From contig JAGWBQ010000008.1 in the NCBI GenBank assembly GCA_021295815.1, positions 1 to 64,000 on the forward strand: 64,000 nucleotides of DNA. Direction: 5' to 3'. How positions within the stretch are numbered: position 1 is the first letter of the stretch; each line of letters starts with the position of its first letter. Made by a program: the position numbers and the translations under genes. The stretch comes from Gemmatimonadota bacterium (GTDB taxonomy: Bacteria; Gemmatimonadota; Gemmatimonadetes; Longimicrobiales; Gaopeijiaceae). The notes beneath the pieces were generated by a model that was not told the DNA's origin, ran no database searches, and saw nothing but the letters and a program-made list of their open reading frames with translations. Below, in pieces: positions 47,504 through 51,574 of this stretch.

Positions 47504-48850
47504 CTACCCCTCGCCGTCCTCTTCCTCCAGAACCGGCCTGCCGCCGACGTAGACCTGTTCCAAGGTCTTGGTGTTGGTGATGTCGCGGAAAGGACTGGCG
47601 CCCAGCACCAAAAAGTCGGCTCGCTTGCCGGGTTCCAGCGTTCCCACATTGTCGAGCCCGAGGCACTCCGCTGCGGTGCCGGTAGCCGTCCTCAGGGCTT
47701 CGGTCGGAGTCAGACCGGCGCCGCCGACCATCAGCGCGAGCTCCATGTGCTCGAAGAAGCCGGGGAAGCGGCCCGGAGGTCCGGCGTCGGTCCCGAACGC
47801 GATCCGTACTCCCGCTTCGTTTAGGGCGGTGAGGTTGGAGAGAGCCTGGACGAGCGCGACCCGATAGCGCGCCGCCGTCTCGCTGGTCCGCACCTGCTCC
47901 ATGTAGGTGGAGTCGCTCAGCCGTTCGACCTCGGAAGCCATGGCCCGAGCGGTGAAGAACTCCTCGTCGAAGAAGCCGGGACGCCGGCCGTAGACGAAAG
48001 TGCTCACCTCGCGGGTCAGCGTGGGAACGTAGCACACGCCGCTCTCGGTCAGGCCGGTTGTGAACTCGTCGTCCACGTCCGCGTCGCGGACCGAGTGGGC
48101 GATCAGCCCGGCCCCCATCTCGAGAGCTCGGCGAGCGTCCTCCAGGTAAAAGATGTGCGTCGCCACCGGCACGCCCGCCTCCCGACCGACGTTCACCACG
48201 GCCTCGACCGCTTGCCAGGGCATCTTCTCGCTGGTGCCGAGGTTGTCGTCGATGCGCAGCTTGAGCCAGTCCGCCCCGGCGGCCACGACCTCGCGCGCTG
48301 ATGCGGCCGCCTCGGAGGGCTCCCGGGCGGTGATGACCGGCCCGGAGGCCAGCAGGGCGGCCAGGCCGGCTGCGTCGGCGATCTCGTCCCGCGCCTCGAT
48401 CACCTCGACGGCGTCGCCGAGCGAGTTCACAGTCGTGACGCCGTAGGCCGCGAAGAGACCTAGATCGGCCTTCACCCTCTCGACGATGTCGTCCTCGCCG
48501 TTTTCCATCCAGCGTCCCGACACGTGCGCGTGGGTGTCGATGAGTCCCGGAATGACATACTTGCCTTCGAGCAGGACGATCTCCGCGTCGGCGGGGATGC
48601 CGCCGGTGGTGGAGACCGAGACGATCGTTCCGTCGGTGACGACGATGGTCGCACCCGATGTCGGTTCGGAGCCGGTGCCGTCCCAGACCGTCGCGCCCAC
48701 GAATGCGACCGTGGTGGCGGCCGTGCTCTGCTGAACGCCGGAGGACGCGCTCCCGATGTCCGGGGTGAGGCTTGCGAAGGCCGGCGACGGCGTCACCGCG
48801 AAGAGGGTTGGAATCGCCGTGATAGCTTGAAGGCGGACTGGTATTTTCAT
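47504..48850 (-). CDS. Exported amidohydrolase (imidazolonepropionase-like)
   Basis: A 448-aa protein with signal segment (LQAITAIPTLFAVTPSPAFA). A full binuclear amidohydrolase site is visible: H107/H109 (LIDTHAHV), carboxylated K197 (ADWLKLRID), H232 (VATHIF), H252 (IAHSV) and D355 (FGTDAGP). The C-terminal LEPGKRADFLVLGASPF is typical. Hydrolysis of small amides or dipeptides is likely. The ATG overlaps the stop of the fused permease gene (ATGA), so hydrolase and transporter are made together. Confidence 0.88.
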   Translation of the reverse strand: MKIPVRLQAITAIPTLFAVTPSPAFASLTPDIGSASSGVQQSTAATTVAFVGATVWDGTGSEPTSGATIVVTDGTIVSVSTTGGIPADAEIVLLEGKYVIPGLIDTHAHVSGRWMENGEDDIVERVKADLGLFAAYGVTTVNSLGDAVEVIEARDEIADAAGLAALLASGPVITAREPSEAAASAREVVAAGADWLKLRIDDNLGTSEKMPWQAVEAVVNVGREAGVPVATHIFYLEDARRALEMGAGLIAHSVRDADVDDEFTTGLTESGVCYVPTLTREVSTFVYGRRPGFFDEEFFTARAMASEVERLSDSTYMEQVRTSETAARYRVALVQALSNLTALNEAGVRIAFGTDAGPPGRFPGFFEHMELALMVGGAGLTPTEALRTATGTAAECLGLDNVGTLEPGKRADFLVLGASPFRDITNTKTLEQVYVGGRPVLEEEDGEG

Positions 48851-50973
48851 TTCCGCATATCCGGTTGGTACCGTCTCCGCACGGCGGTGATTCCCTCTTC
48901 GGAGCCGATCACCGTCAGGCGGTCGCCGGCGCGGAGAAGTGTCTTGGAGTCGGGTATGATAAGCTCTTCACCCCTGACCACCATAGTGGGTAGAGTCCTC
49001 GGAGGAAAGGCAATCTCGCCCAGAGTCCTGTTCACCAGGCCGGCGTCGTCCACGTTGAGCTGCGCCACGAGCTCGTCCTGCAGCAGGGTCGTACGCAGTT
49101 GGTCGTTCCCTTCCGCAGCGACCCAGGCGTCCATGAACTCCACATGGTCCGCTCGGCGGGCGATATGGGCCAAGGTCCGGAGGTGGCGCCCGGGTGCGCT
49201 CTTGGGCGAGACCAGGAAGAACACGGCCCGGACCGGCTCGGCCTTGGGGGGCGCAGTCGGGGGAGGCGGAGTCGCTTCGGACCTTGCGATATCGGTGACT
49301 CGCGGCGCTCGGGCTATCGCCAGGTAGGGTCGATCGATGGAATCCAGGGTGAGGTGCGGGAGCGCTACCCCGTGTGAAACCGGGGTGGCTCCGCTGCGTC
49401 TGCCCTCCATGAAGGCCGCGTTGAGGCTGGCGGCGTCGGCGGTTTCGCTTACCGCGCCGGGGGCGATCAGTTCGGCTAGACGCCGAGACGCCAGTTCGGC
49501 CAGTTCGGCGAAGGCGACCGGGCGGGCGTAGTCGAGAACCGGAGCCTTGGTCACCAGCGCGAAGAAGGGATCGGCCTCGCTGGCGGAGTGCTCCTTCATG
49601 ATCTCGCGGAGCTCGCGGTCGAGCCCGGTGTGACGTTTTCGTCCCAGTCTTTCGAAGACGTGGAGAATAGCTCCGCCGCGGTCCACGCGGTGCTGGGCGT
49701 AGTAGCTGTACCAGCTCGCTCCCAAAACCACCAGACCGCCCGCGAAGAGAGACGGCAGCGTACCCAGCGTCACGATCATCCAGCCCGAGGCCAGGATGCC
49801 GCCGATGTGAAGCGCCGGATACAGGGGAGACCTGAAGCCGGGGTCGTACGAAGCGAGCCCGCTTTCTCGCATCACGATCACTCCCAGGCAGGCGAGCGAG
49901 AAGGTCAGGAGCAGGAAGGCGCTCGCCAGCTTGGCGATGTTGCTTGGACCCAGCGAGACGAATGCGATGACGAGCGCCACCGTCACCACGATGCCCACCG
50001 TAGGAGTGCCTTGTCGGCTTATGCGCCCGAACAGCGGCGGAAGGATGCCGTCGCGGGCCATCGCCAAAGGGTAGCGCGAAGAGTAGAGTATGCCCGCGTT
50101 CGCCACCGCAAAGAAGGCGAGCAGAGCCGCGACGGCCGCGAGCGTCGGCCCCAGCGTCGAGCCCCATCCGGTGGCGAGTACCTCGGCGGTGGTGGCGACG
50201 GGAGTCAGATCGCCGCCGTCGGCCGCGAGACGGTCCGCGCCGACAACTCCGACCATGACGGTTGTACCGCCGATGTAGACGAGCAGCACCGTGCCGAACG
50301 CGAGAAAGATGCCGGTCGGAAAGCTCCGGGCGGGATCGCGGACCTCTTCCGCGACACTGGCGACGTTCGATAGTCCCATGTAGCTGACGATGACCAGCCC
50401 GGCGGTCGCGACGAGGCCGGAATCGAGATTACGTCCGATTCCTGCGAAGCCGCCAGGGTCGACCTGAAACGAGCCGGCTCCGATGAAGAGAGCGAGCAGT
50501 GGCAGCAGGCCGACGATCAGGATCGCCTGAAACCGTCCCGTGATCCTCGCGCCCAGGGCGTTCACGGCACCGAAGACGATAGCTAGCGCCCATGCGATGG
50601 GCGTCGCCGGCAGGTCGTCGAAGAAGATGCCCAGGTAGGCGCTGATGCCCACCAGGGCGAAGGCGGCCTTGAGCATCAGCGAGATCCAGATGCCGAAGCC
50701 CGCGATCGTCCCCACGAGTGGCCCCATGGCTCGGTCGGCGAAATAGTAGACGCCGCCCGCCTTGGGCATGGCGGTGGTCAGTTCCGCGACGCTCAGCAGC
50801 CCCGGCGCCAGGACGAGCCCCGCCAGCGCATAGGCAAGCGGGACTGCGGGACCGACCTCATTGGCCGCCAGTCCGGGCAGCAGGAAGAAACCCGAGCTGA
50901 GTGTCGCCCCTACCGCGAGGGCGTAGACATCTCTGGTGCCGAGGGATTTCGGGAGCCCCTTGCCGAGACTCAT
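48847..50973 (-). CDS. APC-family permease fused to a PTS IIA-like and a TrkA_C domain
   Basis: A 708-aa protein. Residues 1-435 form a 12-helix amino-acid/polyamine-type permease (AVGATLSSGFFLLPGLAANE, MPKAGGVYYFADRAMGPLVG). After a basic linker, about 465-615 resemble a PTS EIIA type-2 (IIA-Ntr) domain, with the phosphorylatable His at H540 in SHGVALPHLTL. About 630-705 is a TrkA_C/RCK_C domain (NRTLGEIAFPPRTLPTMVV, LLRAGDRLTVIG). The IIA-like module suggests phospho- or ligand-dependent gating. Substrate unknown, probably an amino acid released by the coupled amidohydrolase. Confidence 0.85.
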   Translation of the reverse strand: MSLGKGLPKSLGTRDVYALAVGATLSSGFFLLPGLAANEVGPAVPLAYALAGLVLAPGLLSVAELTTAMPKAGGVYYFADRAMGPLVGTIAGFGIWISLMLKAAFALVGISAYLGIFFDDLPATPIAWALAIVFGAVNALGARITGRFQAILIVGLLPLLALFIGAGSFQVDPGGFAGIGRNLDSGLVATAGLVIVSYMGLSNVASVAEEVRDPARSFPTGIFLAFGTVLLVYIGGTTVMVGVVGADRLAADGGDLTPVATTAEVLATGWGSTLGPTLAAVAALLAFFAVANAGILYSSRYPLAMARDGILPPLFGRISRQGTPTVGIVVTVALVIAFVSLGPSNIAKLASAFLLLTFSLACLGVIVMRESGLASYDPGFRSPLYPALHIGGILASGWMIVTLGTLPSLFAGGLVVLGASWYSYYAQHRVDRGGAILHVFERLGRKRHTGLDRELREIMKEHSASEADPFFALVTKAPVLDYARPVAFAELAELASRRLAELIAPGAVSETADAASLNAAFMEGRRSGATPVSHGVALPHLTLDSIDRPYLAIARAPRVTDIARSEATPPPPTAPPKAEPVRAVFFLVSPKSAPGRHLRTLAHIARRADHVEFMDAWVAAEGNDQLRTTLLQDELVAQLNVDDAGLVNRTLGEIAFPPRTLPTMVVRGEELIIPDSKTLLRAGDRLTVIGSEEGITAVRRRYQPDMRK

Positions 50974-50989: not shown

Positions 50990-51574
50990 TTAGCCGGAGG
51001 CCTCTACGATCCGATCCAGATACTCGTCGATCTTCGCGACGGCCGCGAGCGTCTCGGACTGAGAGTCGGCCCCGGCGATGGCCATCGCGAACTTCATCAT
51101 TTCCCGCCGGGCGGCGTCGCGATCGAAGGTCGAGGCCTTGTGGGCGGCGGTGACCGGGGCCGCCTTGGGAGCCGAGGCGCGTCCGCGCGGCTGCTTGCGC
51201 GGAGTCTCGGTCGCGGCGGAAACGATCTTCCACGGCATCTCCTGACCCTTGGCGGCGGGGGTCGGCGGTACGGGTTCGGGAGCCGCGTCGGCGACGGCGC
51301 CCGGAGCGGGAGCGATCGGCTGGGGCTTCTTCTTCCGGCGTCCGTTCTTCGGCACCCTCTTGGGCGCCGGCGGCAACTTGCCTTCGTCCCGCAGCTCGCG
51401 GTAGGCCGGCAGTCGGTACTTGCCCTGGAACTGTCTGATCGACAGGTCCGCCACGGAAGAACTGATCTCCGTAGCCCGACGCTGGAGATCTTCGTTCCGG
51501 GTCTTGGGATCCTTGAGTACCTCGGTCTTTACGAACGCCAGGACGCGGGCGTACTCGGTGGTTGCCTCATTCAT
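50990..51574 (-). CDS. Hypothetical protein with Pro/Ala/Lys-rich linker
   Basis: A 194-aa soluble protein from ATG 51574. The N-terminus (NEATTEYARVLAFVKTEVLK) and the LSIRQFQGKYRLPAYRELRD block look like a short folded helical domain. The centre is disordered and basic, rich in Pro, Ala and Lys (PKNGRRKKKPQP). The C-terminus is helical (MMKFAMAIAGADSQSETLAA). It ends 16 bp before the permease start. No family recognised. The layout (folded end, basic linker, helical end) could fit a DNA-binding or scaffolding protein, but this is only a composition argument. Confidence 0.6.
   Translation of the reverse strand: MNEATTEYARVLAFVKTEVLKDPKTRNEDLQRRATEISSSVADLSIRQFQGKYRLPAYRELRDEGKLPPAPKRVPKNGRRKKKPQPIAPAPGAVADAAPEPVPPTPAAKGQEMPWKIVSAATETPRKQPRGRASAPKAAPVTAAHKASTFDRDAARREMMKFAMAIAGADSQSETLAAVAKIDEYLDRIVEASG

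Follow-up and report, generated by a model that had tools for sequence, protein, structure and literature searches.

Introduction

In Escherichia coli, unphosphorylated PtsN binds and inhibits the K+/H+ antiporter YcgO, and phosphorylation markedly weakens this binding (PMC11808508). The same paper proposes that PtsN opposes RCK-driven activation of YcgO, and says that how it opposes the RCK domain awaits determination. PtsN also binds TrkA of E. coli (Lee 2007, as told in PMC13104625), and fusions of Usp to amino-acid permeases have already been published (PMC12159084). Here we describe a 708-residue protein in which an APC amino-acid permease is followed, on the same polypeptide, by a PtsN-like IIA domain and a TrkA_C domain. 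Its gene occupies positions 48847..50973 on the minus strand of a stretch of 64,000 nucleotides from a Gemmatimonadota bacterium (contig JAGWBQ010000008.1, assembly GCA_021295815.1), and this whole stretch is called the window below. We propose, with a probability of roughly 0.47, that the PtsN-like and RCK_C domains form an in-cis switch gating the permease, which would receive input from the phosphotransferase system (PTS) where a relay exists, and in which the conserved histidines H540 and H597 would have an additional, PTS-independent role.

Like YcgO, whose activity is set in E. coli by unphosphorylated PtsN, the protein is predicted to be a transporter with a cytosolic RCK part. YcgO, however, belongs to the CPA1 K+/H+ antiporters, its tail is RCK-CorC and its PtsN is a separate protein, whereas the window protein is an APC permease with a PtsN-like domain fused ahead of RCK_C and no match to CorC. 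The TrkA case likewise brings a PtsN domain together with a partner that bears TrkA_C, but involves separate proteins and K+ transport in E. coli rather than a single polypeptide with an amino-acid permease. The haloarchaeal APC-Usp proteins likewise carry a fused cytosolic domain, and the permease of Haladaptatus sp. DYSN1 (WP_277506302.1) is 41% identical to the window protein over a 494-column alignment. These proteins differ in the tail: when the full protein of one family member (L019) was searched against plasmids, 1113 records were returned, none covering 80% of it, and the three haloarchaeal relatives examined among the 30 listed all ended in Usp rather than in IIA and TrkA_C. In turn, no Usp domain was matched in 69 family members at E 0.001, and a plasmid search with the tail gave no match at E 1e-3. 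A whole-protein search of genome contigs returned seven actinobacterial loci, with matches confined to the permease half. The combination of APC, PtsN-like and RCK_C domains appears to be a variant for which we found no published description: judged by title and abstract, none of the open-licence papers among the matches listed (in several searches the best 8-20 of a longer list) describes an APC permease that also carries IIA and TrkA_C. With both regulatory domains in one protein, it could serve structural and transport studies well.

Results

A family of permeases with a two-domain tail

The open reading frame (ORF) starts with an ATG at 50973 and ends with a stop codon at 48847-48849, giving 708 codons plus stop, while the plus-strand reading of 48847-50973 is interrupted by stops. 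The initial annotation had given this interval, without a strand, to an amino-acid permease with IIA-Ntr-like and TrkA_C domains; ORF reading, Pfam and a family scan agree with it on interval and architecture, all three Pfam matches exceeding their curated cut-offs, and its numbering of H540 in the motif SHGVALPH is correct, as the motif begins at residue 533.

The membrane domain (residues 11-408; 49750..50943, minus strand, as are all features of the gene) is recognized by Pfam PF13520 and PF00324 and by solved relatives. AA_permease_2 (PF13520) matches residues 11-403 with E 4.5e-43, above its curated cut-off, and the best solved relatives, 6f34 (E 7e-32) and 5oqt (E 1.1e-31), cover the membrane domain only. 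We take this pair to be GkApcT and a further structure, 3gia, to be ApcT (MJ0609), with both of which the protein shares the APC membrane domain. It differs from GkApcT at the helix-5 lysine K191, to which we assume a proton-coupling role: by pairwise alignment to the solved relative, K191 falls on L156 of the window protein, and the 69 family rows have L in 62, V in 5, T in 1 and a gap in 1. Among NCBIfam models, the top one of 39 is TIGR00909, a general amino-acid transporter (172 bits against a cut-off of 556.8), and the best 25 of the 39 all score under their cut-offs.

A conserved linker (residues 430-470; 49564..49686) leads from the membrane domain into the tail. The IIA domain (residues 476-631; 49081..49548) is supported by Pfam, by profile comparison with PtsN structures and by hhalign. 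PTS_EIIA_2 (PF00359) matches residues 514-631 (E 9.9e-9; 35.8 bits against a cut-off of 27) and spans profile positions 37-142 of 144. In a profile built from 43 tails, the IIA part covers most of the PtsN structures 2a0j, 4gqx and 3urr, reaching E 9.1e-14 over chain residues 14-147 of 2a0j, and hhalign of 28 family IIA domains against the host genome's own PtsN gives a probability of 95.8. In the alignment, H540 (codon 49354..49356) takes the position of the histidine that is phosphorylated in PtsN and stands in the GxAxPH context of such sites, and H597 (codon 49183..49185) takes that of the second histidine conserved among IIA proteins. Between them lies a Pro-rich loop (residues 560-582; 49228..49296) whose length differs among members, columns 569-571 being gaps in 68 of 70 tails. 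The TrkA_C/RCK_C domain (residues 641-701; 48871..49053) is matched by Pfam (E 7.2e-12; 45.5 bits against a cut-off of 27) and by structure profiles, the last part of the 43-tail profile matching the TrkA structure 3jxo with E 3.2e-11 and the family profile run giving 5.6e-13. On these matches, the tail is assigned as a linker, a PtsN-like domain with a variable loop, and RCK_C. We file the domain as PtsN-like rather than PtsN because close relatives occur without any detectable donor and because its phosphorylation is putative.

The tail was searched in 395 genomes of a single phylum, Gemmatimonadota, which is the scope of all whole-genome sampling here. At E 1e-5, matches were found in 115 of the 395, many of them other IIA proteins or transporters by frame length and position. 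Site counts are based on 69 homologous tails spanning H540 plus the window tail, that is, 70 rows from 68 genomes; they retain two members that end at contig edges (L008, L082) and exclude two fragments without the H540 site (L101, L102), while a tail without a permease (L050) was left out of the tree and of the 69-member alignment. Among the 69 permease-bearing proteins, including the window protein, AA_permease and PTS_EIIA_2 are each matched in 69 and TrkA_C in 68, the probable exception being L082, which is cut by its contig end. Given this recurrence, the architecture is best read as a family and not as a chance fusion.

Ten tail residues are invariant in 70 of 70 rows: R432, A435, F440 and E454 in the linker, and H540, R555, H597, L601, F613 and W617, whereas P539 is proline in 47 of 70. 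For comparison, we used 21 other IIA proteins of the phylum, namely the host's PtsN and 20 hand-picked ones, mostly best tail matches, some of them lying in frames as long as 432 amino acids; here, all 21 have Pro-His at the site, and 17 of 21 have an equivalent of H597. The host's standalone PtsN (C6:82210-82632) and three of the 20 others have Tyr at the second histidine position, which is His in all 70 permease tails.

Tails are also found apart from permeases. In one genome (G203), a 284-residue ORF (L050:2912-3766, plus strand) consists of linker, IIA-like and TrkA_C domains without a permease, has an intact SHGAALPH motif, and has no permease relative within the 8.3 kb examined. L101:4537-4911 and L102:4523-4924 (both plus strand), from different genera, hold only the second IIA half and TrkA_C (124 and 133 amino acids from the first start codon); their open frames start near the variable loop, and they could be decay products or a real short form.

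The tail in genomes with and without a PTS

The host assembly (2.47 Mb, 35 contigs, 96.08% complete) encodes a PTS relay. Genes for enzyme I (EI; match at C6:94043-94375) and HPr (C6:94414-94629) are adjacent at the end of contig C6, with EI directly upstream of metK, and the standalone PtsN gene lies about 10 kb away. HPr contains GMHARPA and EI contains TRSAH and VCGE, which we take to be the expected PTS motifs. An EIIA-Man match is present on contig C18, and a search of the host genome for HprK gave no match, although C6 ends just upstream of HPr and a gap is possible there. The initial annotation had seen no PTS partners in the window, had suggested a genome search for EI and HPr, and had proposed that transport is coupled to phosphotransfer. 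The window lies on contig C8 and indeed lacks such partners, while the donor genes turned up on C6. Of the two outcomes that it had named as refuting, a missing donor and a variable H540, neither occurs in this genome and family: the donor genes exist and H540 is invariant (70 of 70 tails). Coupling to phosphotransfer may occur but is unlikely to be the full account, since 13 related genomes keep the tail although searches detect none of EI, HPr and standalone PtsN in them.

Across the phylum, 361 of 395 genomes have an EI match and the same number an HPr match, their assignment to tail-bearing genomes being a reading of search listings. Of the 68 genomes whose tail spans the site (in G203, a tail without permease), 56 have EI; 55 of these also have HPr, and the remaining one (G226) has EI without an HPr match. 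Twelve lack both, eight belonging to genus g4 and four to genus g8; a thirteenth genome without both (G084, genus g8) has a tail fragment only. A tail or fragment is thus present in 13 of 34 EI-less genomes as compared to 56 of 361 EI-bearing ones, and we therefore conclude that occurrence of the tail does not depend on a PTS.

Several searches bear on the absence of donors from the 13 genomes. Domain searches found no EI C-terminal domain in them, save for a 99-residue stump in G102 (g8); the sole PTS_EIIA_2 match in each is the permease or its fragment, with no standalone PtsN; and searches for EIIA-Man and HprK gave no match, HprK being missing from the host as well. In g8, metK and a nuclease neighbour are retained, and no EI lies within 1.5 kb upstream in four of five genomes. 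In the fifth, G102, EI residues 503-584 are still represented by an 82-residue match that lies between metK and a glycosyltransferase gene, and two PTS-bearing controls (G115, G057) have EI at the corresponding metK position. Because the neighbours are kept and EI is gone, the g8 loss reflects a deletion rather than an assembly gap. The stump itself is contained in a 99-residue ORF in the metK-glycosyltransferase interval (L106:1623-1922, minus strand), a fossil of the g8 PTS loss. In g4, metK is present in eight of eight genomes with neither EI nor nuclease adjoining it, so that the evidence for absence there comes from the domain searches. On the permease tree, g4 and g8 are placed in different clades.

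All 13 PTS-less genomes retain the tail or a fragment of it, and the 12 whose tail includes the site all have both H540 and H597. Phosphorylation by the PTS is thus plausible where a PTS exists, but the domain is unlikely to serve this purpose alone, because PTS-less genomes keep the tail and both histidines. The two lineages provide a natural experiment that may separate what phosphotransfer needs (P539 and its surroundings) from what other functions need (H540 and H597). If the second function is real, a catalytic-looking histidine in a fused IIA domain would be no proof of PTS control unless the donors are checked.

A residue next to the site differs between these groups. Position 539 is proline in 47 of the 58 members whose genomes bear a PTS and in none of the 12 whose genomes do not (Glu in g4, Thr in g8); the motif of one PTS-less relative reads SQGVVLEH. 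Parsimony on the tree requires four changes between proline and another residue, two of which fall on the two PTS-loss stems; the chance of both stems being hit is about 3.2e-4 if changes follow branch length, for a column that was chosen post hoc. The remaining two, in family f4 and in G339, arose with the PTS present. In g4, five IIA positions (478, 521, 532, 539 and 542) are fixed differently from 13 sisters in which they are invariant, three of them within eight residues of H540. The g4 IIA domain is under purifying selection: its median ratio of nonsynonymous to synonymous divergence (dN/dS) is 0.093, compared to 0.096 for the membrane domain (Nei-Gojobori; 27 pairs with dS > 0.02), and the tail ratio is well under 1 in both g4 and g2. 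In g8, mean dN is 0.047 and mean dS 0.236, and the median ratio of 0.397 comes from six close pairs, too few for weight. A feature tied to phosphotransfer may have been relaxed upon PTS loss, while H540 and H597 would serve a purpose outlasting the PTS, which could be structural.

Discussion

A proposed switch acting in cis

We favour a model in which a cytosolic two-part switch, the PtsN-like IIA domain followed by RCK_C, gates the permease in cis. It amounts to the PtsN circuit of E. coli transferred into one protein, and is the simplest model because both regulatory domains share one polypeptide behind the permease. In hosts with a PTS relay, EI and HPr would most likely phosphorylate H540, and transport would follow the phosphoenolpyruvate or energy state. 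The IIA-like and RCK_C domains might touch each other or the membrane domain, comparable to PtsN acting in trans on YcgO and TrkA, and RCK_C might bind a small ligand. H540 and H597 would also act independently of the PTS, by inter-domain contact, ligand binding or a structural contribution, and could for this reason be kept after PTS loss. Phosphorylation, gating, ligand and substrate are in each case proposed from sequence comparison.

Small-ligand coupling, which the initial annotation had also suggested, is proposed on the grounds of the RCK_C fold. The leading candidate, to be taken as a lead only, is c-di-AMP, because a diadenylate cyclase gene is present and the family profile matches 5f29. 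The profile reaches E 2.1e-8 with this antiporter-like RCK_C structure and E 0.0037 with 4xtt, from a potassium-transport protein; the two are presumably the c-di-AMP complexes of CpaA and KtrA, respectively. The host has the cyclase gene, and so do 46 of 52 genomes tested, all 13 without a PTS among them, a count that covers tail- or fragment-bearing genomes, 52 of 69.

A number of points weigh against the proposed switch. The docking site proposed for PtsN on YcgO is CorC and not RCK (PMC11808508), and no CorC domain is matched in the window protein at E 0.1, so the interface must differ. Structure prediction for the window protein alone gave a mean predicted local distance difference test score (pLDDT) of 38 and no usable model. 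No gene neighbour of the permease is conserved in 58 other loci plus the window. Eleven of the 58 PTS-bearing members have no proline at position 539 (ten in family f4, and G339), so that P539 is rejected as a clean indicator that a PTS is present, and in g8, which has the longer stem, P539 is one among 28 fixed IIA differences from near relatives, so that the change is not specific there. Finally, the second histidine of PtsN has been reported to point away from the active site, and retention of the conserved histidines may be structural.

Alternative explanations

A variant of the model shifts the emphasis: H540, R555 and H597, all invariant, would act mainly in a PTS-independent way, through ligand sensing or in-cis docking to RCK_C that gates the transporter, and PTS phosphorylation would be an optional layer dropped by some lineages. 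We regard this as possible, if somewhat doubtful. A shade more doubtful is that the IIA-like domain is unphosphorylated throughout the family, a repurposed fold whose three invariant residues bind a ligand or RCK_C. It would account for a tail kept by 13 genomes, in two separate lineages, where EI, HPr and standalone PtsN all go undetected, for the persistence of both histidines in every PTS-less member with the site at low dN/dS in g4, and for the stricter conservation of H597 in permease tails than in other IIA proteins. It does not fit well, however, with the frequency of P539 in PTS-bearing members and its disappearance from both PTS-less lineages, nor with an intact motif in the window protein whose own genome encodes EI and HPr.

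That the tail is a remnant, with a permease working alone and IIA-like and RCK_C domains that merely stabilise or oligomerise it, is unlikely. The modest IIA match of the window protein (35.8 bits), the variability of P539 and the shortened ORFs L101 and L102 could be read in this way, but the near-complete retention of both domains across the 69 members, the low tail dN/dS in g4 and g2, and the existence of the tail as an ORF of its own (L050) argue against decay. Group translocation, in which a true PTS component would pass phosphate on to the substrate, is rejected as highly improbable. The protein does have the two histidines conserved in IIA proteins that pass phosphate on, but Pfam shows no IIB or IIC domain in it, family members occur in genomes where neither EI nor HPr is detected, and amino acids are not known to be substrates of the PTS.

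Gene neighbourhood and related transporters

Downstream of the permease, an amidohydrolase gene (47504..48850, minus strand; ORF reading and Pfam) overlaps it, the permease stop and the amidohydrolase start sharing ATGA at 48847-48850. Because of this overlap, the two genes are probably translationally coupled. The arrangement is not seen in 58 other neighbourhoods, and the amidohydrolase is not a conserved neighbour: weak relatives (27% and 30% identity) lie on the opposite strand close to two further permeases. Upstream, a 194-residue ORF without Pfam match (50990..51574, minus strand) ends 16 bases before the permease ATG and has no relatives in the 58 other neighbourhoods. Among the 25 largest clusters of neighbouring ORFs in the 58 loci and the window, none is common to more than seven loci, ORFs on or straddling the permease excepted. 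With no conserved neighbour, the gene context is therefore silent on substrate.

Other transporters of the phylum also have fused IIA domains. CPA Na+/H+ exchangers share this feature with the window family but differ in their membrane domain and in having the IIA domain at the C-terminus; in L144:172-2793 (plus strand) and L145:462-2969 (minus strand), Usp precedes the C-terminal IIA, and L146:2547-4901 (minus strand) combines TrkA_N with IIA. On this comparison, the window gene is one instance of transporters with exchangeable cytosolic regulators. A Na+/H+ exchanger from a genome of the same order (L147:1441-3186, minus strand) has TrkA_C and a sub-threshold CorC match, an architecture resembling that of YcgO. 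Two stop-to-stop frames of 432 and 441 amino acids (L148:1097-2392 and L150:1455-2777, both minus strand) have IIA in their last third and a first part without Pfam match at E 0.001. On a Haladaptatus plasmid, a 142-residue TrkA_N gene overlaps the start of a Usp-tailed permease by four bases, near an Lrp-type regulator (L103:2067-4669, plus strand), and may represent a split RCK-permease pair.

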